Source: Halicephalobus mephisto (Eukaryota; Nematoda; Chromadorea; Rhabditida; Panagrolaimidae). From it: DNA of 64,000 nucleotides. Both the position numbers and the translations under genes were made by a program. Within the stretch, counting starts at the first letter, position 1. Every line of letters starts with the position of its first letter. Positions 16,659 through 45,820 of the stretch are shown here, piece by piece. The notes beneath the pieces are model-generated. The model had not been told where the DNA came from, ran no database searches, and saw only the letters and a program-made list of their open reading frames with translations. The DNA lies in assembly GCA_009193035.1 (NCBI GenBank), contig SWDT01000182.1:245454-309453 (forward strand), read 5' to 3'.

Positions 16659-18821
16659 ATGTTGATATTCTTTGTAATAACCCTACTGGGGTTCATCCAT
16701 GGGTCGGGGGCCCAGACAAGATGCTCCGATGCTCCTACTCCTGCTTTGAAGATTATCTGCGAACAGATTCATAAATGGGACAAAAATGCCAGGGTGAGGA
16801 TTTTTTGGGATGACGATTTAGTAATTTATTCATTGTAGGCAAGTCCCCCAGTAACGGCCAAATTAGCTCTACCCCCGGCGATCCCTGGACAACCAGCTCC
16901 CATGATCGCTGCGGAAATTGCTCCGATCGCCTCAACCCCCTACCAGTGCATGGATCTCGGATGTCTTTGCCAGTACATGGGAGGTAACGGTCAGCAAGGA
17001 TCGAATGCCTGTACTCTTAGCAATGGTCAGCCTCTGAGAAAGGCCTTGAGGAAGGAATACAGAATGATGACGGATGCAGAAAGAGACCGATTCCACGCCG
17101 TCATGAGACAACTGAAGAATTCAGGAGAGTACGACACACTCTCCAGTGTCCACAGTCAGTTTGCAGCATCTGGAGGAGCTCACTCTGGTCCGGCCTTCCT
17201 CCCCTGGCATCGAGAGTTCATAAAGAGAATGGAAATCGCCATCAGACAGATCGACCCAACTCTGGGGCTGCCTTATTGGGACTCTACCTTGGACTCTTCT
17301 TTGGCTAACCCGAGAGATTCCATTCTATTCTCTGATGAACTTATGGGAAGAACCGATGCTTCAGGTAATCTGGTCACTGGATTCCTCAATCCGTGGAGAA
17401 CAAGAAACGGGAACCCGTACATCAGAAGAGCCATAGGAGCCCAGGGATCCTTGTTCACTGAGGCAGAAATTGCATTCGTGATGAGACAGACGCAAGTGGA
17501 GCAGGTTTTGGCAGTAACGGCTCCTCAACAAGGCTGTCCTGTGAGAACAGACTGGAACGTTCTTGAATACACCCACGGAAACATCCACATCTTTGTTGGA
17601 GGAGACATGCTGGACCAATCAACTTCGGCCAACGACCCTATCTTCTTCTTACATCATAGTTTCGTCGATTTCATTTGGGAACTGTGGAGACAGCAAAGAC
17701 AAAGCCGATATGAGAGAGAGAACTCCTTCCCTCTTGATCGACAGCAATGTAGCTCTGCCAATCACTTTGGATCGGCTTTGATGAGACCCTTCGAGCCCTG
17801 GAGAAACGTCGATGGACTCAGTAACCTTTATACAGACAACATGTATGAATACGCCCCAAGACCTACTTGCACCGCCACTACAGAATGCGGCTCTAAATAT
17901 CTCTTCTGTGATCGTTCTCATGGATCCCCCAGATGTTCCAGTAAACTCAGGATCGGAGCTGGTTGCGGAGGATACAGAGGAGAGAACCCTTGCTACAACG
18001 GAGTCTGTCAAGGAGGAGTTTGTGTTGCTGCATCCAATGTTCCTGTAACGACGAGAAGACCTCCTGTTTTGACAACATTGCCCCCGGCAGCGAGACCCGG
18101 AGCACATGTCCACAACTGCTTCAATGAGCACGAGTGTTGCGCCACTTGGAAAGACAAGGGAGAGTGCTCCAGGAACCCTGGATACATGAATGAATGGTGC
18201 AAAGCCTCTTGTGGAAGATGCCGACCTTCCTACGACATCAGAGTTGAGTGCTCTGACCGACACCCGAACTGTGTCAGATGGTCAAGAAGTGGAGAATGTA
18301 CCAAGAACCCCTACTGGATGACTGAAAACTGTCGCAGATCTTGCAAGAAATGCTCAGCCACTAGGGCTCAGACTTGTGGAGGAAGATCCCAACAACATCA
18401 AAGACCAACTCCGGCCCCTGCTCGTCCTGCCAAATGCGATTCTCCTGGATGCTTCAACGAAAACATCTGCTGTCAATACTGGGGCATTCAAGGCCAATGT
18501 GCCAGAAATGCCACTTGGATGGCTTGTAATTGCAGAGTTTCATGTGGTTACTGTATCCCCCAAGATTACTTCTACGGAACCTGCGACGACTACCACCGAG
18601 ATTGCCAAGCTTGGTCCCAGAGAGGAGAATGCCAGAAGAACCCTTGGATGTTAGAGAATTGCAAATCTTCTTGTCAAACTTGTCTTAGTCACTTTGAGTT
18701 AACCAGAATGTGTGGTGGTGGCCGACGTCGAGTCGGAAGAGATGCTAGTGGAGGTCTAGTGGACCCGTCCTTGCTTGAGATGAGAGACGGACAAGGAATG
18801 CCTGGATCTGAGTTTATGTAA
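16659..18821 (+). CDS. Secreted tyrosinase with four ShKT domains
   Basis: Two exons, 16659-16793 and 16839-18821, give 705 residues; the 45-bp intron is GT-AG. The start at 16659 was chosen because it alone supplies a signal peptide (MLIFFVITLLGF then a small-residue cleavage region) in frame with KIICEQIHKWD, a segment conserved before nematode tyrosinase domains. CuA ligands are His150, His160 and His169 (the last in PWHREF). CuB ligands are His291, His295 and His317 or 318 (HGNIH and DPIFFLHHSF). A Cys-rich linker is followed by four six-cysteine ShKT modules at about 472-506, 516-550, 583-617 and 627-660. Known role: a copper monooxygenase/oxidase of phenols, used in cuticle or eggshell sclerotisation and melanisation. 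All copper ligands are present, so an active enzyme is inferred. The last ~45 residues are Gly/Arg-rich and unassigned. Confidence 0.94.
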
Positions 18822-23346: not shown

Positions 23347-23623
23347 AATCTTGCTTAATAAAGCACAGGAATGTTGAAATAGTATTGGTTTTTTATATTT
23401 TAATCTTTTTGTATGATAAGTATCATTAAATGATTTTGATCATGAAATACTATAAGTACATATTTCATTGATTTTTGACGTCTCAGCATCCTTCTCAACA
23501 AGTCAACCAAGTTTATTACAAGCTTATATTTCTTATCAGCCATTCGTTGAGAAATTTCTTTTATTTTCCCTCTACTTCTCGTGAAAAAAACGTGGTTTTA
23601 TTTATAAAATTGAGGATTTCAGG
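23347..23623 (+). promoter_or_regulatory. Upstream block, copy 1 (before GTPase A)
   Basis: A 277-bp block repeated almost exactly at 27156-27431, with about ten differences, mostly single-base changes and indels. It ends 235 bp before the start codon of paralogue A. It contains two TGATAAG-type GATA sites, at 23414-23420 and on the other strand at 23532-23539 (CTTATCAG), and a TATA-like GGTTTTATTTATAAAA near its end. Promoter function is inferred from position and from the shared location before both paralogues. Confidence 0.65.
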
Positions 23624-23858: not shown

Positions 23859-26356
23859 ATGGCTTACTCATATTCTTCCACGCAGAAGAAAGATCCAGCA
23901 AAAACAGTCTCCATCTTTGGAATAAACACAGATAATGTCATTGGATTTGATTCTCTAGGATCCAATTTAGTGAAAACCAACGAAACTCACGAAATAATTC
24001 CAACTAAAATTTCTCTAAAGTACACAATCGAAACTGTGATCAAAGAACATCCAAGTAGCCAAAATTGCTTGAAAGCCCTCCAGGTGGACCCGGTTATGGC
24101 AGTCAGTTTGTGGAAGACTGATGATTCATACTTCAAAGCAATGATCCAGTTCTGTTCTCAGTTCCCGACAGGTACTCCTTTATTTTTTATCCAGTTAACC
24201 AAAGGAAAAGTGGTATTACCACAACAGAAAGTTAATCCTAGAATAACTCATCGAATAAAGTGGATTGACTACGGATATCAGATGATTATTGCAGTTCCTC
24301 TTTATAAAGATGAGAAAAGTATAAGAGAGGTTTGAATGTAGTCTTTTAGAAATGGTAAATGATATATTGTAGATCGAGAAGGGACTCTTAAAAAGTCTAT
24401 CACAAGATGAAGAGTCATATTTCAATCGGCATATTCTTTGTCAGATGATATGCAATGGACAAATCTCCGATTCTGATCAATCCATGAATGAAGCGATACA
24501 TCAAATAACTACTTACAGGAAATTTGATGATCTCGGGATGCCACTTCAGATTCACTTGGATAAAGGAAAAAAAGAAAACGAAAATTACTGGATGTTTGAC
24601 CTGCTGCATGAGTTGACCAATGTTTGCAACGAAACGACATTTGAACAACGAGGAAGTTTTGATCAATGTTACCGGGCATTGGAGGACATTGTTCGCAGCT
24701 TCAAGAAAAGCAGAACTAGGACTTCCTTGAATCAACAAGTACTCAAGGAATCGTTTATGAGATATTTAGCGTTATGTCAAGAGAACAGAATTGAGGACTA
24801 CTGGCCGGACGATGACTTCAGATTGACAATGATGGATATTCTGGATTCTATAATAAATCACAATCAACAGATACCTTCGGGAATTTCAGATATCCTTAAT
24901 AGAACGACAATGGGAGAAAATAGAGATCTCTCTGTTCCACTAAATCACCAACGAACAATTAATAAAATTTTTAATAAACAGAAAGTAGAGGAAACTTTTC
25001 CACAAGACCAGTCAACAGAAGTAACTAATTTCCCCGTCAATTCCAATAAAGATGAAGGGAAAACACGAATTTTGGCCACTCCGAAGAAATCGATTTTAAC
25101 AAATCCTCGGTATTCACTTCGTAAGCGAGAATTTGGAAGCGGATCCATGACACCTGAAACACCGACTAAAACGACTACACGAAACTTGAATAACGAGATT
25201 GTTACTCCTCCATTAGGTAAATTGAACTCAGATGAAGTTTACAGTAATATCATTCAAGATTCTTTTATTCCACTAGTCTTTAATTTCCGAATCACTTTTA
25301 GTTTCAGATCATCCAAAGAAATTCAAAGTGGTTTTTGTGGGAGAATCGGGTGCAGGGAAATCAACACTGATCAGTGGACTTTCGAATTATTTTTCTTGGC
25401 CGAAATTTGATAAAGCTAAAAAACAAAGGATGAAGCTCTGCATCCCAGTAGAATTCACAGTCTACTCCAAGGATAGGGCTCCGATTAAAGTCAGAGCAGG
25501 GAAAGAGGAAGACAACGAGAATTTCAATGATGTGGGACAATCAGTGACTCAACGACCGAAGAAACACTTTTTCCGGTTCGGGGAGAACGCTGTGGAGGTT
25601 TTAGACACTCCTGGTTTACGTGATTCCCGAGGAATGGAACAGGATAACCGTAATCTCGAGCTAATCAAAGAAGCCCTCGAGGAACAAGACGAAATCCATG
25701 CTGTCTGCATTGTTTTGAAATCGAATGAAAGTAGACTCGGTCCTGAACTCGAACTGGCTCTGAAACAGCTTTTCTCCCTCTTACCTAGGAAGTATATATC
25801 TACCAACTTATTCTTCTTCTTCACCTTCGCCAGTGGAACCTTCTTCGGCATCGGGGACATCACCAACCCTCTTGAGGAATTCTTCAGGAAAAACAGAATC
25901 GAATTCGAACTGACTCCAGAAAACTCCTGCGTTGTCGATTCTGACGCCTTCAAGTACCTTGTCACCACAGAAAAGGGAATTATCTACAGTAAGAACAGAA
26001 CCGAGGACGATTTCAAGTACTATTGGGAAGAAACTGCCGAGAACGTTAAAACTTTCTTCGACCGAATTCAGAAGGTGATTCCAGTCAAAAAAGAACAAAT
26101 AACTCTAATTAATCGGACAACAAGACTCGCTGTCAATTTGGAACATCAATTGTCCATCAACAATCAGAAGATACAACGTTTGCTTCCAACCATCCTCAAA
26201 TTGTTCAAACACGTGTACGACAACGGCCTTCCACTGGAAGCAGGAGCTTTTAATGAACGTTTATCTAAGGCTGCTATCAAGCCAAAGCCATACACAAATG
26301 AATTCGATTTGCTTTCGGATATTATATTATTGGAAAAAGAAATACCACGGCAGTGA
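23859..26356 (+). CDS. P-loop GTPase with novel N-terminal domain (paralogue A)
   Basis: Exons 23859-24329, 24373-25216 and 25308-26356 join to 787 residues; introns are 43 and 91 bp. Residues 1-~200 form a domain I do not recognise. It is shared with the downstream gene (KVVLPQQ at 117-123 and NPRIT at 126-130 match its 130-146). A middle helical and then low-complexity, Thr/Pro-rich linker leads to the G domain: G1 GESGAGKST (450-458), G3 DTPG at 538-541 within DTPGLRDSRG, and the stretch VTQRPKKH. The usual G4 N/TKxD is not evident; TFASGT occupies the equivalent place. The domain resembles the AIG1/septin/Toc34-like GTPases annotated only as G-domain proteins in invertebrates and fungi. 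No cysteine cluster is seen, unlike paralogue B. GTP binding is inferred from G1 and G3; cellular role unknown. The ATG at 23859 is preferred to one in-frame ATG three codons upstream, which is also possible. Confidence 0.85.
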
Positions 26357-26607
26357 TTAATAATAATGGATTCAAATATACCTCCAAAATTCGAGAATTT
26401 TCGACTTTTTTATCATTGTAAACAAATGGTACCTTTAAAATCGATAAATAAAAATATACTTTATTTGAGATACATTCAAGAACTTTTTTCAATGATTTAT
26501 CGGCCTTTCCATCAGTACCTAAAATTGCCCTAATGATAAATATTTATTTTTTTTTAATCGTAAAAATAATTTTACTTGCCTAATCTAAAAGATATAATTA
26601 CTACTGG
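26357..26607. other. 3' region of GTPase A
   Basis: Contains AATAAAAATA about 90 bp after the stop, a possible poly-A signal. Nothing else seen before the LINE relic. Confidence 0.4.
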
Positions 26608-26752
26608 ACAAGGTCCGTTTGATTTGTTCTTGTTCTCCACTCTGTGCGGTCTGTAGCGTCTTCAGATTTAACTTTTGCGATTCTCATATCTGTCCTGATT
26701 TTGTCTAACTACCAGGTTTTTGGACGACCTAAGGGGTACTTTCCATCTCCTT
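26608..26752 (-). mobile_element. Relic of a non-LTR retrotransposon (RT C-terminus)
   Basis: On the minus strand this reads GKYPLGRPKTW, one in-frame stop, then LDKIRTDMRI, and later EDATDRTEWRTRT. The pattern GRPK..W.D.I..D, then D..DRT.WR, is typical of the extreme C-terminus of LINE reverse transcriptases in invertebrates. The in-frame stop and the missing upstream RT domain show that it is dead and truncated. It sits between the two GTPase paralogues. Confidence 0.6.
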
Positions 26753-27155
26753 GAAAGTTTTCTGTATTATAAATATCAAATAAATTGAAAACAGTTATTT
26801 TTTAACAATCCATGTGTTTTCAGAAATACTTTTAGTACTATATTCTGCTTCATCAATCTGAAAAAGCAATTTACCGATCTGTAGATTAATATTAGTGTTT
26901 TCTTTAAAGCAAATATTTTACTTCTTTTTACTGGTAAAAATTTATTTATTTAATCTAAAGAAAGAAACAACTCCAACAAGCAAAAAAAACGAGTAATTGC
27001 AAATACAGTACATATATCACTCTCAAAAATCTAAATAGTTTTGACTTCTGCAATTAATACATTATCAATAAAAATTTATTTGCTCACGATTTTTTTTCAA
27101 TCGATCGAATTTGTCGGCTGATAAAGTTTGTCATTTGAATATCATGTTGAAATCG

Positions 27156-27431
27156 AATCTTGCTTAATAAAGCACAGGAATGTTGGAATAGTATTGGTTT
27201 TTTATATTTTAATCTTTTTGTATGATAAGTATCATTAAATTATTTTGGATCATGAAATACTATAAGTACATATTTCATTGATTTTTGACGTCTCAGCATC
27301 CTTCTCAACAAGTCAACCAAGTTTATTACAAGACTTATATTCTTATCAGCCATTCGTTGAGAAATTTCTTTTATTTTCCTTCTACTTCTCGTGAAAAAAC
27401 GTGGTTTTATTTATAAAAGTGAAGATTTCAG
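27156..27431 (+). promoter_or_regulatory. Upstream block, copy 2 (before GTPase B)
   Basis: The second copy of the block at 23347-23623, ending 460 bp before the start codon of paralogue B. Both GATA-type sites are kept (27223-27229 and 27342-27349), as is the TATA-like end. Differences are scattered, including one base in the poly-A run and a small rearrangement around 27335. After the block the two loci no longer align. An 18-codon ORF just behind it (27437) has no support as a gene. Confidence 0.65.
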
Positions 27432-27891
27432 AAATTATGGAAGAAAAGCTACTGAAAAAGGATATCAAATTGAAGGAAGAAGAAAAAGAGTAAAGGGAAG
27501 TTAGAGTACTGGTAAAGAAATTCAGACCATCCAGAATTACAAATTTAAATTAGATATTATCAGCGCTACGAATATCATACAGTACAAAAGTCGTCCCAGA
27601 CAATGCAGAAGTTGTTTATTTTTAAGGCAGAGGATAAACCGATCAGTAACATCTTCGAAAAAATAATTCTTTCTTGAAAAACTGTAAATCTTCAGAATTT
27701 GTCTTTTATAATGTTAAGTATACTTCCAATGGAAGTTCAGTTAATCTATTAAAATAATTATGCATTTTTACTTATCTTTCATATATTTAATGAATAATAT
27801 AATTTTAAAATATGGAGATTTGACAATTGACTGTTTGTTGCAGTTGAATACCGATTATTTGTGAATAATTTTGTAAATAGGTTTTAGAAAA
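27432..27891. promoter_or_regulatory. Region between upstream block and GTPase B
   Basis: A/T-rich with no frame of note. A possible leader; a TTAATGAATAATATAA stretch lies ~100 bp before the ATG. Confidence 0.3.
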
Positions 27892-30738
27892 ATGCCGCTA
27901 AACCAGAAAAAGATAACTCAATACAAGCAATTTTTCGGACAGGACTGTCAGTCAATTATTGGATACTCAGACAAAACTCTCGATTTTGTGATTGACGATT
28001 CTTGTAAAGTTGACTATGAAGACCACAGTGACAACGTGATCCCGAAAATTCTTCAAATCAAGCAGGTTGAGTCAGAAACTACAATCGTAGATGATATTCT
28101 TCAAGTATTGCAAGTGTCTCCTCGAGAAATGGTTCACTTTCACATTAGTAGAGTATATAACCAAACTAACTTTCAGCTCAAATTACTCACATTCAAAGAA
28201 TCCAAAATCAGCGAAGTGTTCGACTTCTTTTATCAACACGCCAAGGTGAATTATATTCTTTGTAACATGGTCTTATGCAAAGTCGTTCTGTGCCCTCAAC
28301 AACCAATAGAAAAGAACCCACGGATTACCCAGGAAGTACTCAAGATTTACTCTGGTCATCAAATTTTCCTTGTTATTCCATACAACAAGAAATTTGGTAC
28401 TGACAAAGTTCACAAATTTTTGATGGAGCTTGCAAACGAAAAGCACAATAATCCTTGGGGCAATAATATCCCTTCTGAGTATTATATTAAAGTCAACTTC
28501 GATGCAGAGATGACAATCCCGTATGCTCAATTCGGTGCTACAATCAACGTAGTTCTCCAAAGAGAAGACATCATTCCGATCTTACTCGAGCTGAACAATC
28601 CAGTCAATTTGGATTTTCCTGTTTCGTCTTTTGAATTTAAAAATATGTATTATTTAGAAAATATCATCGCTCTAATTAAAGCACAGCATCCACAGCTGCT
28701 GAAATCAACTGAAAACAAATATAACTATGATCAATTGTTTCAACGCTTGAGTGAGAGTTCTAGACAAATAGCTGAACATGAAAAAGTATTAAAAAATGGA
28801 CCTCCATACAGTGCTGTAAGATTTGCCGACCTTTATTCTGACGTTTCAACCTTCCACTCTCTTTTTACACCCTATTTGAAGAAATCATTGAAATACAATC
28901 TCCCTATCAGCTTCCTTGATAAAAACATGTTTGGTATTATCTACAATAAACAGACAGTATTTCCATTGAAGAAACAATATAACAAATTCATTCTTGAATT
29001 AAATAATGCTAATTACAATCGAGTGATGGGCATGATCCAAAACCAGGTGAAGATCCTTGTTAGCTCTACTAACTTTAACTATCTGGTTGATGCTTACTTT
29101 GACAAAGAAACAGTTTTTCAATGGGTTTTGGATTCACGAAAAGAAGCATCTGAATATCCTGTGATCATTATGAGCGATTCTACGAAACAGACAAACACCA
29201 TTGGTTGGGTTGGGAAAGCAAAACCGAATGTACAAGGTAAGCGAAATCGCTGTCAGTGTTGTTCATCAGTTACAAATTGGATCTGCAAAGATTGTGGTAA
29301 ATTAATTAGAGTTGTTAATAGAAGTCTGCTGAAGAAGTGCACCTGCAATGTCAACAACATCGACGATATTGAATTCTTTTGTCTTTCTCAGTGGGGAAAA
29401 GCAAACAATAAGCCAAATATTCAATCTCTGAATCTAACCCCAAAACCTTCAACTTCATCAACCTCGACTTTTCAATCTAATAAACATCAATCGTCTTCAT
29501 TACCTTCATTACCTCCAAAGCCGAAAAACCTCTCACCTCGAACATACAACATCCTCCTGCTCGGAGCAAGCGGAACGGGCAAATCAACATTGGTCAACAG
29601 TATTCCAAATTACCGAAAGTTTCCTCAATTTGATGATGCTAACGGAAAACTAGAAACGGTCGTCCCGACAGTATTCACATCGTATTCCAAAGAAGACGAT
29701 GGGACAATGAAGATGAATAAAATCCAAATTGGTGATCCAGATCAAAACGAGAACTTCAATGATATAGGTCAAATAGTAACCCAAAACCCTCGGAAACATT
29801 CATTCCAGTTCAGAGGAGACACCTTCAACATAATCGATACCCCTGGGTTAGTTGATTCGAGAGGACCGGATCAAGACAAACTCAGCTTAGTTTCGATTCG
29901 AGAAGAGATAGAAAAACTCGATCAGCTCCATGGAATTTGTATCGTCTTAAAGTCGAATGATTGCAAACTCGGTTCCGAATTCGAAAATTGTCTCAAAGGA
30001 CTGCTCTCCCTCTTCTCCAAGACTGTTATCCCTAATTTATTCTATATATTCACTCACTGTGGAGATAATTTCGGAAACATCAGTGATTCATTGAATGTGT
30101 TGAAGACATTCTCAGAGAAGTTCTACCAAGGCAATAAAGTTCGCCTTGAGTTTAAACAAAACAGAATCGTATATGTCGAAAGTAAGGCTTTTAATAATCT
30201 AATTGCCATGCAAAACAATCAGAACTACAAAAGGAATACTGGCAGTTTAAGGGATATATGGGAAGAATCGGCTCAGAACATTAACAAATTCTTGGAAGAG
30301 ATCAAAGTCATTACTCCAATCAGTGCATCCGAAATCAGAAGACCTTATCTTCTGAATTCAATCGGAATGAAATTGGCGAGAACAGTCATGAATCCGAATA
30401 ACAACATACCGAAAGAAGTTTCCATCTCAGTATTGAATGAAATCATCAACGAGACAATGTCCTTGACTCATACGTCGTTTAAAGATCTAGCAAAGGTCTT
30501 ACAAAAGGACAATGCTATTGAAGTTGTGGATTTGAATCAAGCTCTGCAATTTCTCGTTGATATTCCAGAACTGAAAGACGATGTCAATGAGTTGATAAAT
30601 CAGAAAAACGAACAAAATGAGCAATCTGGCAAGAACGAACAAAACGAGCAATCTGGCAAGAACGAACGTGACGAAAATAACATCAGAACCATTGGTAGTG
30701 GTATATTTGGTTTTTTAAAAACAAATTTCCGTAATTGA
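27892..30738 (+). CDS. P-loop GTPase with N-terminal domain and cysteine cluster (paralogue B)
   Basis: A single uninterrupted exon of 948 residues. The N-terminal ~200 residues are homologous to those of the gene at 23859 (KVVL.PQQ..., NPRIT at 142-146). A larger helical middle region follows. A cysteine cluster lies at residues 454, 456, 457, 465, 468, 483, 485 and 497 and looks like a zinc-binding module. Then come a Ser/Pro-rich linker (about 505-545) and the G domain: G1 GASGTGKST (558-566), NENFNDIGQ, and G3 DTPGLVDSRG from 649. At the position where a G4 is expected the text is FTHCGDN, not N/TKxD. The C-terminus carries two copies of NEQNEQSGK before a hydrophobic end. It is intronless while paralogue A has two introns, so introns were gained or lost after duplication, or B arose by retroposition. 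Function unknown; GTP binding is inferred. Confidence 0.86.
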   Translation: MPLNQKKITQYKQFFGQDCQSIIGYSDKTLDFVIDDSCKVDYEDHSDNVIPKILQIKQVESETTIVDDILQVLQVSPREMVHFHISRVYNQTNFQLKLLTFKESKISEVFDFFYQHAKVNYILCNMVLCKVVLCPQQPIEKNPRITQEVLKIYSGHQIFLVIPYNKKFGTDKVHKFLMELANEKHNNPWGNNIPSEYYIKVNFDAEMTIPYAQFGATINVVLQREDIIPILLELNNPVNLDFPVSSFEFKNMYYLENIIALIKAQHPQLLKSTENKYNYDQLFQRLSESSRQIAEHEKVLKNGPPYSAVRFADLYSDVSTFHSLFTPYLKKSLKYNLPISFLDKNMFGIIYNKQTVFPLKKQYNKFILELNNANYNRVMGMIQNQVKILVSSTNFNYLVDAYFDKETVFQWVLDSRKEASEYPVIIMSDSTKQTNTIGWVGKAKPNVQGKRNRCQCCSSVTNWICKDCGKLIRVVNRSLLKKCTCNVNNIDDIEFFCLSQWGKANNKPNIQSLNLTPKPSTSSTSTFQSNKHQSSSLPSLPPKPKNLSPRTYNILLLGASGTGKSTLVNSIPNYRKFPQFDDANGKLETVVPTVFTSYSKEDDGTMKMNKIQIGDPDQNENFNDIGQIVTQNPRKHSFQFRGDTFNIIDTPGLVDSRGPDQDKLSLVSIREEIEKLDQLHGICIVLKSNDCKLGSEFENCLKGLLSLFSKTVIPNLFYIFTHCGDNFGNISDSLNVLKTFSEKFYQGNKVRLEFKQNRIVYVESKAFNNLIAMQNNQNYKRNTGSLRDIWEESAQNINKFLEEIKVITPISASEIRRPYLLNSIGMKLARTVMNPNNNIPKEVSISVLNEIINETMSLTHTSFKDLAKVLQKDNAIEVVDLNQALQFLVDIPELKDDVNELINQKNEQNEQSGKNEQNEQSGKNERDENNIRTIGSGIFGFLKTNFRN

Positions 30739-31571: not shown

Positions 31572-34500
31572 ATGGCCGCGGCTGCAGTGGCTTCTCCGTC
31601 CAACGGAACTGAAGAAAAATGTATTTGTCAATTGTGCGAATGCGGGTATGTCTTTTATAAAAAATAAAAATCAAAAATTATTATAAAAAAAATTATTATA
31701 AAAATCAAAAATTATTATAAAAAATAAAAATTATTATAAAAAAATAAAACTTATTATAAAAAATTAAAATTATTATAAAAAATAAAAATCAAAAATTATT
31801 ATAAAAAAAATTATTATAAAAATCAAAAATTATTATAAAAATCAAAAATTATTATAAAAATAAAAATTATTATAAAAAATAAAAATTATTATAAAAAATC
31901 AAAAATTATTATAAAAAAATAAAAATTATTATAAAAAATAAAAATCAAAAATTATTATAAAAAAATTATTATAAAAAATTAAAATTAAACTATTATAAAA
32001 ATCAAAATTTTCGTAAAATTGTTTTAAAAATTTTAGAATTTTGAATGAAAAATAAAACGAGTCAATTTCGAAAAAATTGACAAATTTTCTATTTTTAAGG
32101 AAATTCAAAAATTAAAATTTTTATGGAATTGATTTAAGAAAAAATTTAAAAAATAGAAAATCAATTTTTAATGTGTGACAGTAGCCCCCAGCGATATTTG
32201 CTCTCCATTTTTCGCTTTTTTGATTTACAGTGATTTTGAAATTTTTTTAGATTAATTTTTCTTACTTAACTAAATTACTAAGTTGATTTAAATATTAAAA
32301 AAGTAATATAAAAACGAAATAAATGAAATAAAACTTGTGAAATAAAGGAAGTAAATGTCGTACGATCTCCTAACGACATTCACTTTCCATTTTTTTTCAA
32401 TTCTCACTGATTTCGAAATTCTTCCTTTTTAAATCACTATTTTTGTTACTTAACTAAATTACTAAGTTGATTTAAATATTTAAAAATTGATATAAAAAAA
32501 ATAAATGAAATAAAACTTGTGAAATAAAGGAAGTAAATGTTGTACAATCTCCCAATGACATTCGTTCTTCTTTTTTTTTTCAATTCTCACTGATTTCGAA
32601 ATTCTTCCTTTTTAAATCACTATTTTTGTTACTTAACTAAATTATTAAATTAATTTAAATATTAAAAAAGTAATATAAAAACGAAATAAATGAGATAAAT
32701 CTTGTGAAATAGACAGAAAAGACCGCTGTGGAACAATTGCCGTTGGGGAACAATTGTCATTGAGAAGTATTTGTTATTAGTAAATAACTACCGCTGGGGA
32801 ATATTTGCCTCTGGGGAGCAACTGTCATACAGCCTAAAATGAAAAGAAAAAAGTTGCCCAAATTACCATTTTTTCATCTTTGTAAACCTCTCTCGTTCTA
32901 TTTGAAAATTCAAAAATTTTCAAAAAATTGCATTATTAAAAAAATAAAAAATGAGTTTTTATGAAATTCTCTGAACATCAATTTTCAAAATTTTATTAAA
33001 AATAAAAAATAGTTGCTAAAATTACTGTTTTTTATTTTTTGCAAAAATTCGAAAATTACAAAAAATATAATTTTTTATTTAATTGTAACTTTTTTAACGA
33101 AAATAACTAAAGGAACCACAAGTGTCCCCACAATGACGGAAGACTGATCGGAGAAGACGGAGTGCCCGTGGGGCAGACGGAGTACGGTAGTCGATATATC
33201 GAGAAATCTGGAGAAAGAGTAGTTCCAGTCAAGCCAGCCAGAGGGACCCTCGCCAATGAGGGGACTATGGCTCAGGATACAACCCATCTGAGTGAGTTCA
33301 AAGTACAGTGAAACCTCGCTAAAAACAACCCGAAGGGACGGCAGAAAAGTTGTTTTTAGAGGAGTTGCCTTTATTGAGGGGTTTACTAGGGGAAAATCTA
33401 CAGTAGGGGTCGGAACCGAGTTGTCTTTAAAGAGGATTTGCTCTTATCGAGGGTGTTTATATCGAGGTTTCACTATACTTATATCTTTATGATAGGTGCT
33501 TTTCTATAATATTTATTCCCTAAAAATACTTATATCTTTATGATAGGTGTTTCTCTATAATATTTATTCCCTAAAAATACAGTGAAACCTCGATATAAGT
33601 AACCCTAAGGGACGACAGAAATATTGTTTTTAGAGGAGTTGTCTTTATCGAGGGGTTTACTAGGGGAAAATCCACAGTAGGGGTCGGAACCGAGTTGTCT
33701 TTAAAGAGGATTTGCTCTTATCGAGGGTGTTTATATCGAGGTTTCACTGTAATTAAGAAATTTTTTGATTCGATTAGAAACTTCGATTGTGCGATATAAG
33801 GATAAAATTTTAAAAAAAATTAAATTAATCCGATTGGTTTTCAGCGGATTACAAACCTTGGTCGGCACAGAGACAACAGCCGATCCGCCCTAAGGGAGAC
33901 CATCTGGTTGGTTTTTGTTTTAAAAAAATAATAATCAAATTTGTAATCAGTCGATAAATCAAGCATCACTCACGATGAAATTAATTTTATTTTTTATTTT
34001 CTGAAATTTTCCATGTGTCCGAAAAAGTAAAAGTCCTAGATTTATTCCGAGCCGGTTATGGCTTTTATTAAGACTTGGACAAAATACATTATAGAAACAA
34101 TACTAATGTAGTATGGGTCTTCGGGGCTGCGTAGAGTATTGAATGATCTATGATAGTCACACGGTTCCGGGATTTAGTGGAGGATTGAGGTCCCTACCAT
34201 AGGCAGTTTGCCAAATAAGTTTATTCAACATTATCAAGAGAATAGAAAAGAAATATCTCCCAGACTCGTCAGCTCGAATCGGCGGAGCTTCACAGAAATC
34301 CAATAGATTCAATAGATTATCTGATTCCCTCTGTTCTCCGGGGTTCAGTTTTCCTCACCTTATATTGCGATCTGGACACGTCGGCTGATAGGGCAGGGAC
34401 TCCCTGAGGGAATCGTATAGTAGTTGGGTTTTACGTGTATTATTTATACCATACTAATAATATAAACACAACGCCCAGGGGAGCCCCAATTAACCGAAGT

Positions 34501-37548: not shown

Positions 37549-40500
37549 TTAAAAATTTATTAATTTTGCACGTTCTTCTTCATTCAAAGAAGCGAGTTGC
37601 TGTCGTAGGAATTCTAATTGGACAGTTCTGTCTGCTGATCCAAATAACGAATTAAGTGAAAAAACATCAGATCTAAAAGTTTCAAAAATTATTTATTATT
37701 AATTTTAAAAAACTTACTTTTCACCATTCAATAATCTACTGTATTCTTCGCTTTTTTCAAAATTTTCTATATCTGTCATACTGTAAGTAAATTTCGAATT
37801 ATTTCCATTTTTTCTCAATTCAATTCCATTTTTTGACAATTTTTCATCAATTATTTTACATCCTTCTGTAAGTTCAGAAATATCGATGTTTTCTTTTCCT
37901 GGATTTCTAGCTCGAAGAAGATCTTTAGCCAATTCAATCCTCTTCAACTGAACAGACAACAATCGATAAATATAATCCCTTGCAAATCTCCATTGAATAT
38001 GATCCTGAATCGCTCCTTTGGCAATCATTCTCGTCGTCGTATCATGTAAATCTGCAAATTTCACAGCAATAGTACGGTATACAGGAGTCAAAAAAGTTTG
38101 TCTTTTTGAAATTTTCAAAGATATTTCTTTTTTAATTTTCAAATCTTCTGTTTCATTCATTTCTTTCATTAAATTTTGAATAACAGGATCACATTTCTCC
38201 ATTAAAATATGCAAATCTCTAGCTCTAAATTTAATTTCGACAATTCCATCTGGTTCCAAAACTCCTCCTCTAGAATCCCTGTCAGCAATCATCGTGATAC
38301 AAGTCGGATTAATTTGAGTGTCCAAAACTGCCCAAGCTCCTCCTCTAAGTTCCCCAAAAGGAGGGATATAAACAATCACCGGCTGAGTGTAGGCTTGAAG
38401 AGCGTCCACAATACATGCTCCAAATTTCAGGACCATTTCAAACATGTCTAAAATAATAATATTTAAAAAATTAAAAATAATTTTTTTTCTAAAAATATCT
38501 TGAGACGAATTATTGTAACTTTCTACGAAATTCTAAAAGATTATAAAAATCTACAAATAATTCCATTTTTACGAACATATTTTTTAAATTTTATTGTGAA
38601 ATTATTTTTAAATAAATTTTCAGAATTTCGATTTTAGAAATTAAATTCAAAATTTTTCACTAGATTCCAGAATAATTCAAAAATTCCGAATTTTCTAAAA
38701 AAAAAAGTAAAATTCTCCAAAATTTTATAGTTTTTTAATTTTAGAAAATTTTAAAAATTTTATAAATTATTAAAATTTTCTAAAATTATAAAATTATAAA
38801 ATATTTAAAATTTTCTAAAATTAAATAAAAAATAGAATTTTCAAAGATTTTATATAATTTTTAAAAATTCTATAATTTTATAATTTTTTAATTTTAGAAA
38901 CTTCTACAGAATTCTGGTCATTTTGGATATAAAAATTTATAAAAAAACGAACCTTTTTGTCCTCCACTAAATCCTCTAATATTAGCCAAAAGAACCAACG
39001 GCAATCCTTCTTTGTTAAAATCATTAATAGCTTCGGCTGTTTTGTAAGCCGAATCAGGATACCATACTTGACCAGCTTGAGTGCATTTTTTCGATTCAGA
39101 ATCTTGTGCAGCTGGATCTGCCGGAATATCCGATGTTAAAGTTCTAGTTTCAACAGCTATTACACCGACAGGAATTCCGCCTATTCTAGCTCTTGCTGAA
39201 ATAATAGTTTTTGCCCATTCATCCATTATTTCATCGAATGATCCTGAATCAAAAAGACCGTTTCCTTCAGGCGGATCTAGGACTTGTCTAGGATCATATT
39301 GGGATTTAGTAGGATTCGTTGTTACTTCTCTGTTAAATTCGTCATCTGTCGGAAGAAAAACGTTTCTTTCAACTTTCATATATGGATTCGTAGATTTAGG
39401 CAAAAATGAAATCCATTTCGAAATTTTCTTAATTCCTTCAAGATCAGATTTCACTACAGAATGCGAAACACCGTTTTTATGCATTATTTGAGGTCCTCCA
39501 AGTTGTCCATTTGATGTGTAAATTTCCCTCCCTAATAAACTATTCAAAGCATTAGCTCCTGTCAAAATAAGATGAGATTCTTCAACTTGGACTATTCTAT
39601 GAGCCAATCTCGCTGCATAAGCCCCGATTCCGACTGCTCTACCGGTCACCAGACAATATGTAGGGACTTCCTTGTAAGCTGCACTTGTTTCTCCTGCGAT
39701 TAATCCAGATCCGACTAAATTCTCAACTCCTATGTCATTTTCTTTTCCAATAATAGCATCAATTATTTTTTTTCCATTTTCTTCATGAAATTCAATTTGA
39801 TCAAGAATATCATTTGAAACATCTCCAGAATCCAAACAAAGAGCATGAAATCCGTCTTCTGGTCGTTTTTCGTCATTCCAAACAACATTTAATTTTTTTT
39901 TTATGTCTGAAGCAAATCCGATTCTTGCTCCAGAATTAGCAGCTATGTAAATTCTTGGAAGTCCATTTTTCCTACTGTATTCACTAGCCCTAAAATACAG
40001 TCTATGTTCAGCCATCGAAAATGATCCCATCTGATGTGTGACGTCATTAGAAATAACAATAAAAACTCTGCCTGAGGGAGAATCGGGCGAAAAAACATGC
40101 ATTTCCCAAGCCACCATTCCTCGATCATTAGATGGAATTGAATTTCTTTTTTCTAATTCTTGTAAATTTCGAATAATTTTTATTTTTTTTTCATCTTCTG
40201 TCAAAATCATTTCAAATGCAGAACAAAAAGCTGTCGGATTCTGAAGTTTTAAAGCTTTTTGTTGATTTTCAGTCAATTTAGAAACAATTCTAAAAATTTA
40301 AATATATAAAATTTAAAATTTAAAATCTTACTTTTCATATGATTTTGGATTTTTTTCTTTGTATTCTTCCCAAAGATCAAGAACAGCTTTCCCGAAGACA
40401 TATGGAAGATCATAGGAATACAGAGTTCCCAATTTTGCAGCTAAAGCTCTTTTTTTTTGAATAGATACTTTTTCAATTTTTGAATGTTTTTCTTTTGCAT

Positions 40501-43500
40501 TTTTTCCATCAAATTTCGCACATCCTTGAATAATTTTCAAAAATCCTTCAAAAATTTCATAAATTCCGAATTCAGGAACGACTCCTGTTTCATTAGTGAA
40601 AATTCCTCTGATTTTTTTTGTTTTTTCATTTTCTAAAAATTTGTACGAAAATTCAACTTCTGTAATTTTTAATTTTCTAAAAATTCCTTCATATGCAAAA
40701 AGTGCTTCTTTCAGGACATTTGGCCAATTTTCTGTTTTTAACGAAGAATCGTAATCAAGACAGAAAAAAAGATGATTACAATCATTCGCAATTTTTTTGT
40801 CGACAGCAGTTGCTATTTTGATTTCTCCACAGGCAGAATCGATACATTCAACTATGTAATCTCGGAATTTCTCAATTTCTCTGAAAAAAATTAATTACTA
40901 AAATATTAAAAATTATAAATTCAAATTTCTAAGAAATGAATTCTTCCATTTTTGTAATTTTTTTGAGATTTCAGAAATCAAAAATTAGTTTTTCAATTTT
41001 TTTAAATTTGAATTTTCTAAACACTTCAAAAATTAGCATAAAAAGATGAGTTAATTACAATAGTGATTTACTAATTTTTCCATTTTTATAAATTTTTTTT
41101 AAGCGGGAATTCAAAAATTCAAAAATCACACTACTGTGAAAATCAAAAAAGTTTTAAATTTGAATTTTCTAAACAATTCGAAAATTACCATAAAAACACG
41201 AGTTAATTACAACAGTGCATCAGTTTTTCCATTTTTGTAAATTTTCCTTTTTTTAAGCGGGAATTCAAAAATTTAAAAATCACACTACTGTGAAAATCCC
41301 AAAAAATTACAATTTTTTACTTATAATATTAGTAATATTTAAAGAAAAATTACCTCTTGGTTGAGTACTTGTCGGTTTTTATGACTTCGCCAATGTTCTT
41401 GATTATTGTTCTCACGAAAAATCTGACAATTCCTTGATCTTCGACTTTGTAGACCAAATAAGGAGAACTTTCATCACTTACAGTAATCGCTCCATCAGGA
41501 ATTCTACTTATTTCTAATTTGTTTTCTAGACAAGTTCCTTCTGGCAATGGAGATTTATTTAATCCAGTTAGGATTTTTCGAATTTGGATGACCAATTTTT
41601 CGTTTTCAGGATTCGAGAGATTAGCCAAGGATCTCAATTGAGGTTTCAAATCTTCGATAATTTTCTCATCCAATTTTGTAAGAATTTTTTGCAAAAATAA
41701 ATTTTTCGATTCAATTCTTGTGTGTGAAAAAATCATTCTTGTAGATTTTTCAGAATTTTGAATAATTTCGATTATTTCAGAAACGGCTTTATCGTAATTG
41801 ACATTTTGGAAAAATTCCTCTGTTTTTAGATATTCTTTCAATAAATCCAAAATCACCAAAGATTTGTGTCCAGTTAATCCGTTCAAAAATCTTTCACAAG
41901 TTTTTTGAAGTTTTTCAAAATGAACTTTTTCCATTCCAATTTCGGCCGGATTAAGGGAATCCAGATATCTGTCGATTGTTGCTAGGATTTCCACAGCGTC
42001 GAAATCGTCTGCTTCCAGAAGAATTTGGATTTTTTTCAAAGTTTCAGAATCACTAATTCTGGACTTCACAACATGAAGAACAACTTCGTAAAGAACAAAC
42101 GGCAATTTTCTGTTTTCTAAAACATCGAACAATTCCTCGACGACTTCATCGACGTAATCCTTCAGCATCCGATCCGGAACAGAATATCCATCAAGTAAGT
42201 TTCTGCATTTTTCAAGAATTTTTTCAAATTTAATATCGAGTCGAATTTTTTTTTGTTTTTCTTTAATTTCGGCCATTTTCCATTGTTCAAAATTTTCTTC
42301 AAAAATCTTCGGTCTGGCAGTAATGACGTCATTTTGAACATCCAATTTCGCAATTACAGTACCAGGAAACAATACCTGACCAGGTCTTGCGACTTGTATA
42401 AGTTTGCCTGAGGCTTTTTTCACATCTAATGCAATAACCATTTTCATACTTTCCATTTCAGCAAATATTTGTCCAATTTTTACTTCTTCTCCGTCTTTTT
42501 TGAGATACTGTAGAAGTCTTCCAGCATTTCTTGATCGTAAAATAGATGGATCATTTTCTTTTTCGAAAATTGTCAAATTATGCGAAATTACAACTTTGTA
42601 TCTTTCAAGCTAAAAAAAATTTAAATTATTTTAAAAAATAAAAAAAACAAACTTCTTCTTCGAAATTACAGTAATATGTTTTTTCAGCATATTCTACCAA
42701 GATTCCGTTTTCCGAATATTTGTGAATTTTGGTTTTTGCAATTTCGTTGTTTAAAAAAATTAAATATTCTCCGGGACCGTAACGATTTACAAAAACTTCG
42801 AATTTCACATTCTGATGCACCAGCTCCAGATTCACGGATTCCATCAAATCCGTCGTTGGAAGAACCTGACCTCGTTCAATCGCTTTTTTAAATTTTTCAA
42901 AAACATTATTCATTTTTGAAAATCCGATTACTGTAGCTCCTACGGCAATTTTCACATCTAATTGATGTTGTGGAGAAGCATCTGTTTTAGCAGCAATTCT
43001 TTCATCTAACCATCCAGTGTGGTAATTATTGGATTCAAAATCAGGATCTCTAAGAAGTCCAACAAGATAACTGACTTGTGATTGAAAACTTGCTCGGATT
43101 TCCAATTCTTTCAAAGCACATAAAAGCGACGAAATAGCTTCATGACGAGTTGCTCCTTTGGCAAATACATGTCCGAATTGAGAATCTGCAAATTCGTGGA
43201 CTTTTCCAGAAGGTCCCACAGAGAAGTATCCCCAGACATTCTGACTTGATCTGAAGTTCAAAACTTCCAATGTTCCACTTGCTGGTCGGAAGCCTTCTGC
43301 CGGGTCTTCTGAGGTGATTCTGGCGGCAATTACACAAGACTTGGTGTCGGTTCTGACTTGGTCCACTGGCAACGGATTTTTCCCGTATCTGTCCAGTCCG
43401 TAGAATAATCTGATGTCCAAAATTCTATGTAATGGAAGTCCCATCGCAATCTGCAGCTGAACAGCAGGAATATTGATTCCACTGACCATTTCGGTACAAG

Positions 43501-45820
43501 GATGTTCGACTTGAAGTCTTGGATTCAATTCCAGGAAGTAGTACTTCTGAGTTGAAGGCAGATACATGTATTCTACCGTACCGGCACTGATATACCCGAC
43601 TCGTTTGGCCAGATTAACCGCATCCTGCTGCATCTGCTTCAAAACGTGGTTCGGAGCGACGCCGGCCGGGGCTTCTTCGATGATTTTCTGACATCTTCTT
43701 TGAACAGAACAATCTCTCGTAAAAATAGGAATCACTTGACCATAATTGTCGGCAATTAACTGTACTTCAATATGACGAGCATTTTCCATGCATTTCATCA
43801 GAAAAATCGGACTTCCAGGGACTTCCGTTTGGACACGATGGAAGTTGATTACGAAATCGTCGTCATTTGTGCATTTTCTTATTCCTTTTCCTCCGCCTCC
43901 TTCGCTAGCTTTGATCATCACCGGATAAGTGATGTTTTTGTCCTTCAAACATTGTAATCCTTCTGCAGCCGAGGATACAGTAGCTAACTTGAAGATCTCC
44001 GGAGAAACTTCGAGGGAATCGCCTCCGGCTTCGGGCACCTTGATTCCAGAACCAGACCATTCGATAGTTGGGATATTCACCGTCTGAAATTCAATTTATT
44101 TAATTATTAAATAATAAAATTAAAAACAAAAATCTTTACGAAAGTGTTTAAGTTTTTGAGGATTTTAGGATTCATATAAAAATAACAAGAGAGTGAGGAC
44201 AGAGCGCGTTGCCAAATTTATCATTTTTATAAACTTTTTTAATTTTATATGCAAATTCAAAAATCTCCAAAAATATTTTTCTAGATTATAATAATCATTT
44301 TAAAACATTTTGAAAATTACAACAATTGTTGAGAAATCTTTAAAATTACAATAATTGTTAAAAGTGATTTTTAAAATTACTTATTTTTAAAGACAATAGT
44401 TGTTAAAAAAGTATTTTTTTAGATTACAGTTATTTTTAAATATGATAATTATTAAAAAGTACTTTTTTAAGTTATAGTTATTTTTAAATATGATAATTAT
44501 TAAAAAGTGATTTTCAAAATTACTTATTTTTAAATATGATAATTATTAAAAAGTGATTTTTTAAGTTATAGTTATTTTTAAATATGATAGTTGTTAAAAA
44601 TACTTTTTTTAGATTAAAGTTATTATTTCAAAAATAAAAACCTGAGCGATGATGGTAGAGGCAATTTTGTCTCCGAGGGCGAACATGGCGTCAGATGGAG
44701 GTCCGATGAAGACGATTCCGTGTTCCTTCAGCGCTTCTGGAAGCTTCGGATTCTCACTAGCGTGACCCCATCCGGCCCACACAGCATCAACTTCGTTCCC
44801 GACGGCGTGTTGAACGATTTCATCGACGTTCGCGTAATTGTTCGTGTTTGCTCCGGAAGGAGAAAAAACGATGCTATCTGCGAGTTTTAAGTATTCTGAA
44901 AAAACCAAAAATTAATTTTCTTTAATTTTTTCGATAAAAATTCTTAGAATACTCCAAAATTTAAAATGTTAGAAACTTTCGAAATATAAAATATTGAATT
45001 CTGGAATATTCTGAAGACTTCAGAATCTTATATTGAATTCTGGAGGATTCTAGAATCTTCTGTTCGATTTCGAAATCTTAGAAAATTTAAATTTTTAAAT
45101 TTTTAAATTAGAAATTTTGGAAATTTTAGAAAAAATGTACTTCATTCTGAAGACTTCAGAATCTTATATTAGATCCTGGAGGATTCTAGAATCTTATATT
45201 AGATTCTGGAGGATTCTAGAACCTTCTGTTCGATTTCGAAATCTTAGAAAATTTAATATTTTAAAAAATTAAAAAATTAGAGATTTTGGAAATTTTAGAA
45301 AAAATGTACCTCATTCTAGAGGACTTCAGAATCTTATATTAGATCCTGGAGGATTCTAGAATCTTCTATCTGATTTCGAAATTCTAGAAAATTTAATATT
45401 TTAAAAATTAAAAAATTAGAGATTTTGAAAAATCCAAAAATTTCAATTTTTATTAATTTTCAGAAATTTTGAATTTTTAAAATTTTAATATTTAAAAAAC
45501 TAACCGGCTTGTGATTCAACTTCTTGTTCTGTCGTCAAACAGACGAATTTGACAATTCTGTCATCTTTGAAAACTTGCATCAGAAGTCTCCTCATCGAAG
45601 TGATGCACTTGACAGCAGCGATTCCATTCGTGGCGATGAGGATCTTCTTGATGACTCGGCCTTTGGAAGAATCTTCCACAAAGTAGTCGATGAAGCTCTT
45701 GACGGAAGAGAAAATCTTGTCCTCAAGAACAGTGGTCTCTGGAAGATTCTTGGTTTCGAAATTAGTCAAGCCCAGGTGGTAAACGGACATCGTGGGCAGC
45801 TGTTCAGATGGTCCGGGCAT
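37549..45820 (-). CDS. Acetyl-CoA carboxylase
   Basis: Exons (minus) 45820-45505, 44895-44642, 44083-42653, 42609-41354, 40880-40332, 40289-38953, 38447-37718 and 37672-37549 splice to 1998 residues. Biotin carboxylase: [29 protein letters not shown], the ATP-grasp loop [11 protein letters not shown] (about 250-259), and [13 protein letters not shown]. The biotinyl domain has the acceptor Lys723 in AEMESMKM, where Ser replaces the usual Val. The weakly conserved central region is AT-rich in codon use and shorter than usual. Carboxyltransferase: [34 protein letters not shown], and GFSGGQKDMFEMV across the exon 6/7 joint. Role: cytosolic, biotin- and ATP-dependent synthesis of malonyl-CoA for fatty-acid synthesis and elongation. 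Start: the ATG at 45820 lies five bases after a TTTTTAG acceptor, consistent with a trans-spliced leader; an additional 5' exon cannot be excluded. No clear AMPK-site N-terminus was recognised. Confidence 0.95.
41007..41310. repeat. Two copies of a ~150-bp unit in carboxylase intron 4
   Basis: TTTGAATTTTCTAAACA, then GAGTTAATTACAA, AAGCGGGAATTCAAAAAT and ACACTACTGTGAAAATC occur twice in the same order, about 152 bp apart. Confidence 0.6.
44370..44620. repeat. AT-rich tandem repeat in carboxylase intron 2
   Basis: TTATTTTTAAATATGATAATTATTAAAAAG is repeated four to five times at ~60-bp spacing (described here by its core TATGATAATTATTAAAAAG). Confidence 0.65.
44940..45480. repeat. TTCTAGAA-type array in carboxylase intron 1
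   Basis: GGAGGATTCTAGAATCTT is repeated with CGATTTCGAAATCTTAG and long A/T stretches in ~120-180 bp units. Several perfect TTCTAGAA palindromes. Confidence 0.6.

Follow-up and report, generated by a model that had tools for sequence, protein, structure and literature searches.

Tandem AIG1-like GTPases of the nematode Halicephalobus mephisto share with many family members an N-terminal module of possible SNTX-type MACPF ancestry

We analysed a 64,000-nucleotide stretch of the Halicephalobus mephisto genome (contig SWDT01000182.1; hereafter the window) that carries two AIG1-like GTPase genes, gene 1 and gene 2. These are divergent members of an AIG1-like GTPase expansion in this Halicephalobus-type nematode. 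On sequence comparison, the N-terminal module that precedes their G domains is common to many family members and has recurring intron positions. We lean towards the view that this module descended from an SNTX-type MACPF/CDC-like domain. The two genes and their features are as follows.

23859..26356, + strand: gene 1, AIG1-like GTPase, 787 aa; exons 23859-24329, 24373-25216 and 25308-26356
23859..24329, + strand: gene 1 exon 1, holding units 1 and 2 of the N-terminal module, with intron A absent (profile matches and alignment)
24330..24372, + strand: gene 1 intron B, 43 nt, at a position common to other family members
25340..25363, + strand: gene 1 G1/P-loop, GESGAGKS (from sequence)
25604..25615, + strand: gene 1 G3, DTPG (from sequence)
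27892..30738, + strand: gene 2, AIG1-like GTPase; one open frame of 948 aa, or 933 aa without a 45-nt intron
27892..28611, + strand: alpha/beta module at the N terminus of gene 2 (approximate borders), which may be a diverged SNTX-type MACPF/CDC-like domain
28132..28176, + strand: gene 2 probable in-frame intron A, 45 nt; homologous introns in three of four gene-2-type paralogues, the fourth being at a locus edge
28627..28899, + strand: gene 2 predicted helical bundle, residues 246-336; relatives have a stonustoxin helical domain at that place
29251..29382, + strand: gene 2 cysteine knuckle, probable zinc site; seven Cys invariant in five aligned proteins
29563..29586, + strand: gene 2 G1/P-loop, GASGTGKS (from sequence)
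29836..29847, + strand: gene 2 G3, DTPG (from sequence)

The G domains of genes 1 and 2 are 38% identical and both have clear G1 and G3 boxes, which bears out the first-pass annotation of two paralogous AIG1-like GTPases. The AIG1 match (PF04548) in gene 2 scores 40.6 bits, above the Pfam cut-off of 27. That in gene 1 scores 26.0 bits, just below the cut-off, and the partner of gene 1 on contig C162, which carries a diverged version of the pair in reversed gene order, scores 32.8. A P-loop and DTPG are present in all seven proteins examined. The G4 box reads RKxD (in GIMAP proteins) or NKxD; by eye, neither form was found in the 110 residues after G3 in any of the seven, and the G4 position is instead occupied by TH[CS] or TFA, followed by ..FG. 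The window genes are like AIG1/IAN/GIMAP GTPases in their PF04548 match, G1 and G3, and unlike them in lacking a canonical G4 and in carrying large N-terminal modules. Searches of PHROGs and NCBIfam returned only G-domain, P-loop or chance matches. The cysteine cluster noticed earlier in gene 2 is equally well founded, with seven cysteines invariant across the five gene-2-type proteins aligned, and is a probable zinc site.

Gene 1 has the 787 residues and two introns first assigned to it. Gene 2 is indeed a single 948-codon open frame, but its earlier description as intronless is probably wrong, given homologous introns in its paralogues. A short intron lies directly before LKL[LF] in the gene-2-type genes of C162 (48 nt), C216 (41 nt) and C322 (44 nt), and the gene-2-type locus of C69, as fetched, begins inside the equivalent intron with a matching 3' end. 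At the equivalent position gene 2 reads GTTCAC...CTAACTTTCAG (GT..TTTCAG), a stretch of 45 nt which is in frame and stop-free and so resembles coding sequence. Once it is removed, genes 1 and 2 align gap-free at that point. These alignments indicate that the 45 nt are probably an intron; because its 5' splice site is weak, retention is possible. Intron A (before LKLL/IRLF) and intron B (before IEKG/IQIW) both recur among other family members. Gene 1 has kept B and lost A, and gene 2 has kept A and lost B.

Pfam finds nothing above cut-off N-terminal to the G domains of genes 1 and 2. The first-pass annotation had called this region an unassignable domain, which holds in so far as no Pfam family matches it, but the domain is common to many family members. 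A profile of unit 2 (second exon unit), built from four seed sequences picked by eye and searched against the open reading frames of 77 fetched loci, converges at once on 26 distinct sequences from 25 loci (two with broken frames, one partial); the 77 loci were themselves fetched using family members, and the count applies to this set, not to the whole genome. The unit 1 profile matches 16 rows and the unit 3 profile 41, including some that come from loci which overlap. As a less circular check of module sharing, a profile was built from gene-1 and gene-2 types only. Members on C255, C233 and C324 came next (E 0.003-0.013), ahead of unrelated open reading frames, and the type represented by locus L033 was beyond its reach (E 2.7). 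A domain private to this pair was rejected, since the profile matches across many family members.

Two shared strings had been put forward for the pair, KVVL.PQQ and NPRIT. Both exist, but they do not define the domain: the C162 partner genes read EIKLPQQ..YNEVT and NERNPQLP..NPRIT, and KVVL.PQQ was rejected as a signature on these sequences. The recurring feature across the family is a YGHHYF/GHQIFL strand. A protein database search with gene 2 residues 1-460 gave no match at E 0.001, and neither did one with the gene 2 G domain (530-880). As the G domain is unmatched too, the collection evidently holds no relatives, and the N-terminal blank is uninformative on novelty. PDB sequence searches found nothing significant (two matches at E 0.76 and 0.95, otherwise none).

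The link to SNTX-type proteins comes from relatives in the same genome. MACPF_SNTX (PF24674) has four matches there. On C93 it lies with an AIG1 match within one 1182-codon frame, and on C285 it is followed 1.7 kb downstream by an AIG1 match. An open frame at 428 kb on C247 combines MACPF_SNTX (75.7 bits, cut-off 27), DUF7656 (80.8), a cysteine knuckle and a P-loop G domain, together with a stonustoxin-helical match that is sub-threshold (22.6, cut-off 27). Its G domain is 38% identical to that of gene 2 (E 9e-32); MMR_HSR1 is above its own cut-off in this frame and AIG1 (15.1) below. Immediately ahead of the G domain, its knuckle aligns with the gene 2 pattern C..C..W.C..C..C.C..C (hhalign E 0.016, probability 2.8%). 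The order module, helices, knuckle and G domain is thus common to both proteins. Stonustoxin-helical, SNTX-thioredoxin and fn3 domains are also above cut-off in the proteins of C93 and of C247 at 86 kb, the latter having no AIG1 match. Same-genome relatives thus pass the Pfam cut-offs that mark SNTX-type proteins (PF24674, PF21109, PF18078), and the order of parts matches. The window genes differ from SNTX-type proteins in lacking these Pfam matches, in having a G domain and in their shorter module; PF24674 was matched neither by the seven unit-2/3 stretches (E up to 10) nor by the full proteins. As an observation on the knuckle itself, that of the SNTX-type relative matches many other frames; on C112, C290, C247 and C191 a single frame has more than one match, resembling arrays of a zinc-knuckle module.

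Structure prediction of the N-terminal domain, proposed earlier, was run on gene 2 and gave two low-confidence AlphaFold2 models that disagree. Both predictions retained the 15 residues of the probable intron. The folded alignment, A6, had 24 rows; excluded from it were unit-3 fragments, unit-1 fragments from genes other than the gene-1 and gene-2 types, and two loci with broken frames (C255:4.4 kb, C324:62 kb). Alignments A3, A4 and A5, in which unit-1 and unit-3 fragments were misplaced, were not used for folding. The first fold matches of model 2, the better of the two, are stonustoxin and cytolysins, none at E<=0.001. Model 1 disagrees and points to PB1/beta-grasp folds (again none at E<=0.001). 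Sequence support for SNTX-type kinship is weak: the module compared by hhalign with the SNTX-type relatives of the genome scores 16.1 with seven of 60 controls higher, and a test of hidden Markov models against shuffles, made with 14 of 22 joined members picked as less redundant, had a mixed outcome.

The strongest competing explanation is that an ancestral SNTX module was replaced by an interaction domain, either new or a PB1-like beta-grasp, which works through head-to-tail assembly. We consider this unlikely, if a serious contender. The model behind it is the poorer one, and a genome search with PF00564 gave only two matches, on C124 and C221, neither at an AIG1 locus; PB1 was likewise not matched in the N-terminal stretches. 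PB1 is missing from the fold-match table of model 2 and SNTX/CDC from that of model 1, although neither absence excludes the fold. The replacement scheme must also accommodate an SNTX-type relative with an equal knuckle and G domain in equal order. Descent from an SNTX-type MACPF/CDC-like domain is the reading that we retain, at somewhat better than even confidence.

The first-pass annotation saw an expanding family in the pair, and this agrees with the genome. In 59.9 Mb (331 contigs) there are 59 AIG1 matches at E<=0.001, of which 13 lie on C324 (99.8 kb), spread along nearly the entire contig; an Hsp70 search gave 74 matches, some being fragments of one gene. At least one frame on C324 has two G domains. 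An expansion in H. mephisto has already been published, and the AIG1-related parts of that paper (Weinstein et al. 2019, PMC6872716) report a genome of 61.4 Mb in 880 scaffolds with 32.1% G+C, 63 AIG1 loci and 112 Hsp70 loci. The G-domain family is the same as ours, the copy number is similar (59 matches, 63 loci) and Hsp70 is expanded too; unlike here, the AIG1 domain was cut out by HMMER. The same parts place the nematode AIG1-like group outside the plant-human IAN/GIMAP cluster, suggest an ancient transfer from a fungus, and discuss the expansion in this deep-subsurface nematode as stress adaptation. They also report that AIG1 transcripts are not heat-induced, so that AIG1 function in H. 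mephisto is open (PMC6872716). In the parts of PMC6872716 on AIG1 we found neither the N-terminal module nor MACPF_SNTX members nor G-half exchange described. In Biomphalaria glabrata, the relevant parts of PMC7053062 describe AIG genes that are likewise expanded and in tandem with varied N-terminal additions, some of them responsive to immune challenge. The additions there differ, including death, kinase and ARM-type domains, and the term MACPF is absent from the main text of PMC7053062.

A third GTPase-like gene type was seen directly upstream of gene-2-type genes on C162 (locus L011, 3250-4575, - strand) and C216 (locus L022, 3204-4307, - strand). It has a Cys/His-rich C-terminal region. 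The L011 frame is 25% identical to the G region of gene 2 over 121 columns and has no Pfam match.

Some relatives are mosaics of an old N half and a young G half. Between the C322 and C69 genes the N half is 39% identical, with a synonymous divergence (dS) of 1.37, while the G-plus-C half is 93% identical (dS 0.10). The switch is sharp and falls near residue 493, shortly ahead of the P-loop (residue 511). Site patterns change in step: in the N half 516 sites have C216 equal to C69 and 54 have C69 equal to C322, and in the G domain the counts are 24 and 51. Barring misassembly, this pattern looks like G-half exchange or gene conversion between the C322 and C69 relatives. A screen for such cases was limited to the 20 members having 160 or more residues ahead of the P-loop start and 260 or more after it, and 10 of its 190 pairs have a G third-position identity of at least 0.85. 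Five of these ten lack clear upstream homology, the upstream stretch being partly linker and as short as 166 residues.

The N-terminal halves of the window pair also diverge more than the G halves: gene 1 and its C162 partner share 45% identity in the N half and 73% in the G half, gene 2 and its partner 48% and 58%. All halves have dS of 0.9-1.6 and dN/dS (the nonsynonymous-to-synonymous ratio) of 0.17-0.48. Because both halves are old, a recent exchange of sequence with the C162 partners was rejected for the window genes. The dN/dS values, the open frames and the intact G1 and G3 also make it improbable that both loci are decaying, functionless duplicates, an idea that would fit their tandem, fast-diverging state, the weak 5' splice site of gene 2 and the broken frames of two family members (C324:62 kb and C255:4.4 kb).

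AIG1/GIMAP proteins probably work by GTP-dependent assembly into an oligomeric platform. By analogy, the fast-evolving N-terminal module may bind a ligand, membrane or partner, and GTP-dependent assembly of the conserved G domains would convert this binding into an oligomeric platform for signalling or containment. The shortened module of genes 1 and 2 is probably a docking and assembly part rather than a pore. That it is SNTX-derived and still pore-forming, making these GTP-gated pore-forming proteins, is very improbable: only superfamily resemblance speaks for it, the gene 2 module has about 220 residues by our own delimitation against the 301 positions of the PF24674 profile, and membrane-inserting hairpins were not identified (signal peptides were not searched for).

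A pore-former-related module, old N halves and sometimes exchanged G halves would, if confirmed, point to recognition or defence, and an immune or stress role of genes 1 and 2 is conceivable. As a speculative proposal, which we rate as doubtful, this would be an animal front-line family that joins a stonefish-toxin-type membrane module to an immunity-type GTPase, its N half diversifying as a sensor while gene conversion homogenises the G half, like immune receptor families; the window pair would then be two co-regulated sensors that share an upstream element. What we add here is that the N-terminal module is shared and probably of SNTX-type MACPF descent, and that some relatives have evolved as mosaics; the novelty of these points in print is not established, and among the matches listed in open-licence literature (titles and abstract openings) we found no SNTX-AIG1 fusions or G-half exchange in nematodes.

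The upstream element is present once before each gene.

23347..23622, + strand: first copy of the upstream element, 236 bp ahead of the gene 1 ATG; contains TGATAAG twice
27156..27431, + strand: second copy of the upstream element, 460 bp ahead of the gene 2 ATG; contains TGATAAG twice

The two 276-bp copies are 97% identical. A genome search found no third copy, and with only two copies found by it a transposon was rejected. TGATAAG, a motif picked post hoc after sighting, is rarer than expected in the window (five sites, shuffle mean 11.0), and four of the five lie within the element copies. We take TGATAAG to be linked to intestinal GATA factors; genes 1 and 2 may be co-regulated, perhaps in the intestine.

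Elsewhere in the window, which has a G+C content of 33.1%, no run of three TTAGGC telomere repeats was found. By eye, a tyrosinase-like open frame followed by ShK-type cysteine repeats occupies 16839-18821 (+ strand), an AT-rich tandem array with units of the ATTATTATAAAAAATAAAAA type lies at 31650-32000, and large open frames resembling a multi-exon acetyl-CoA carboxylase gene span 37714-44095 (- strand).
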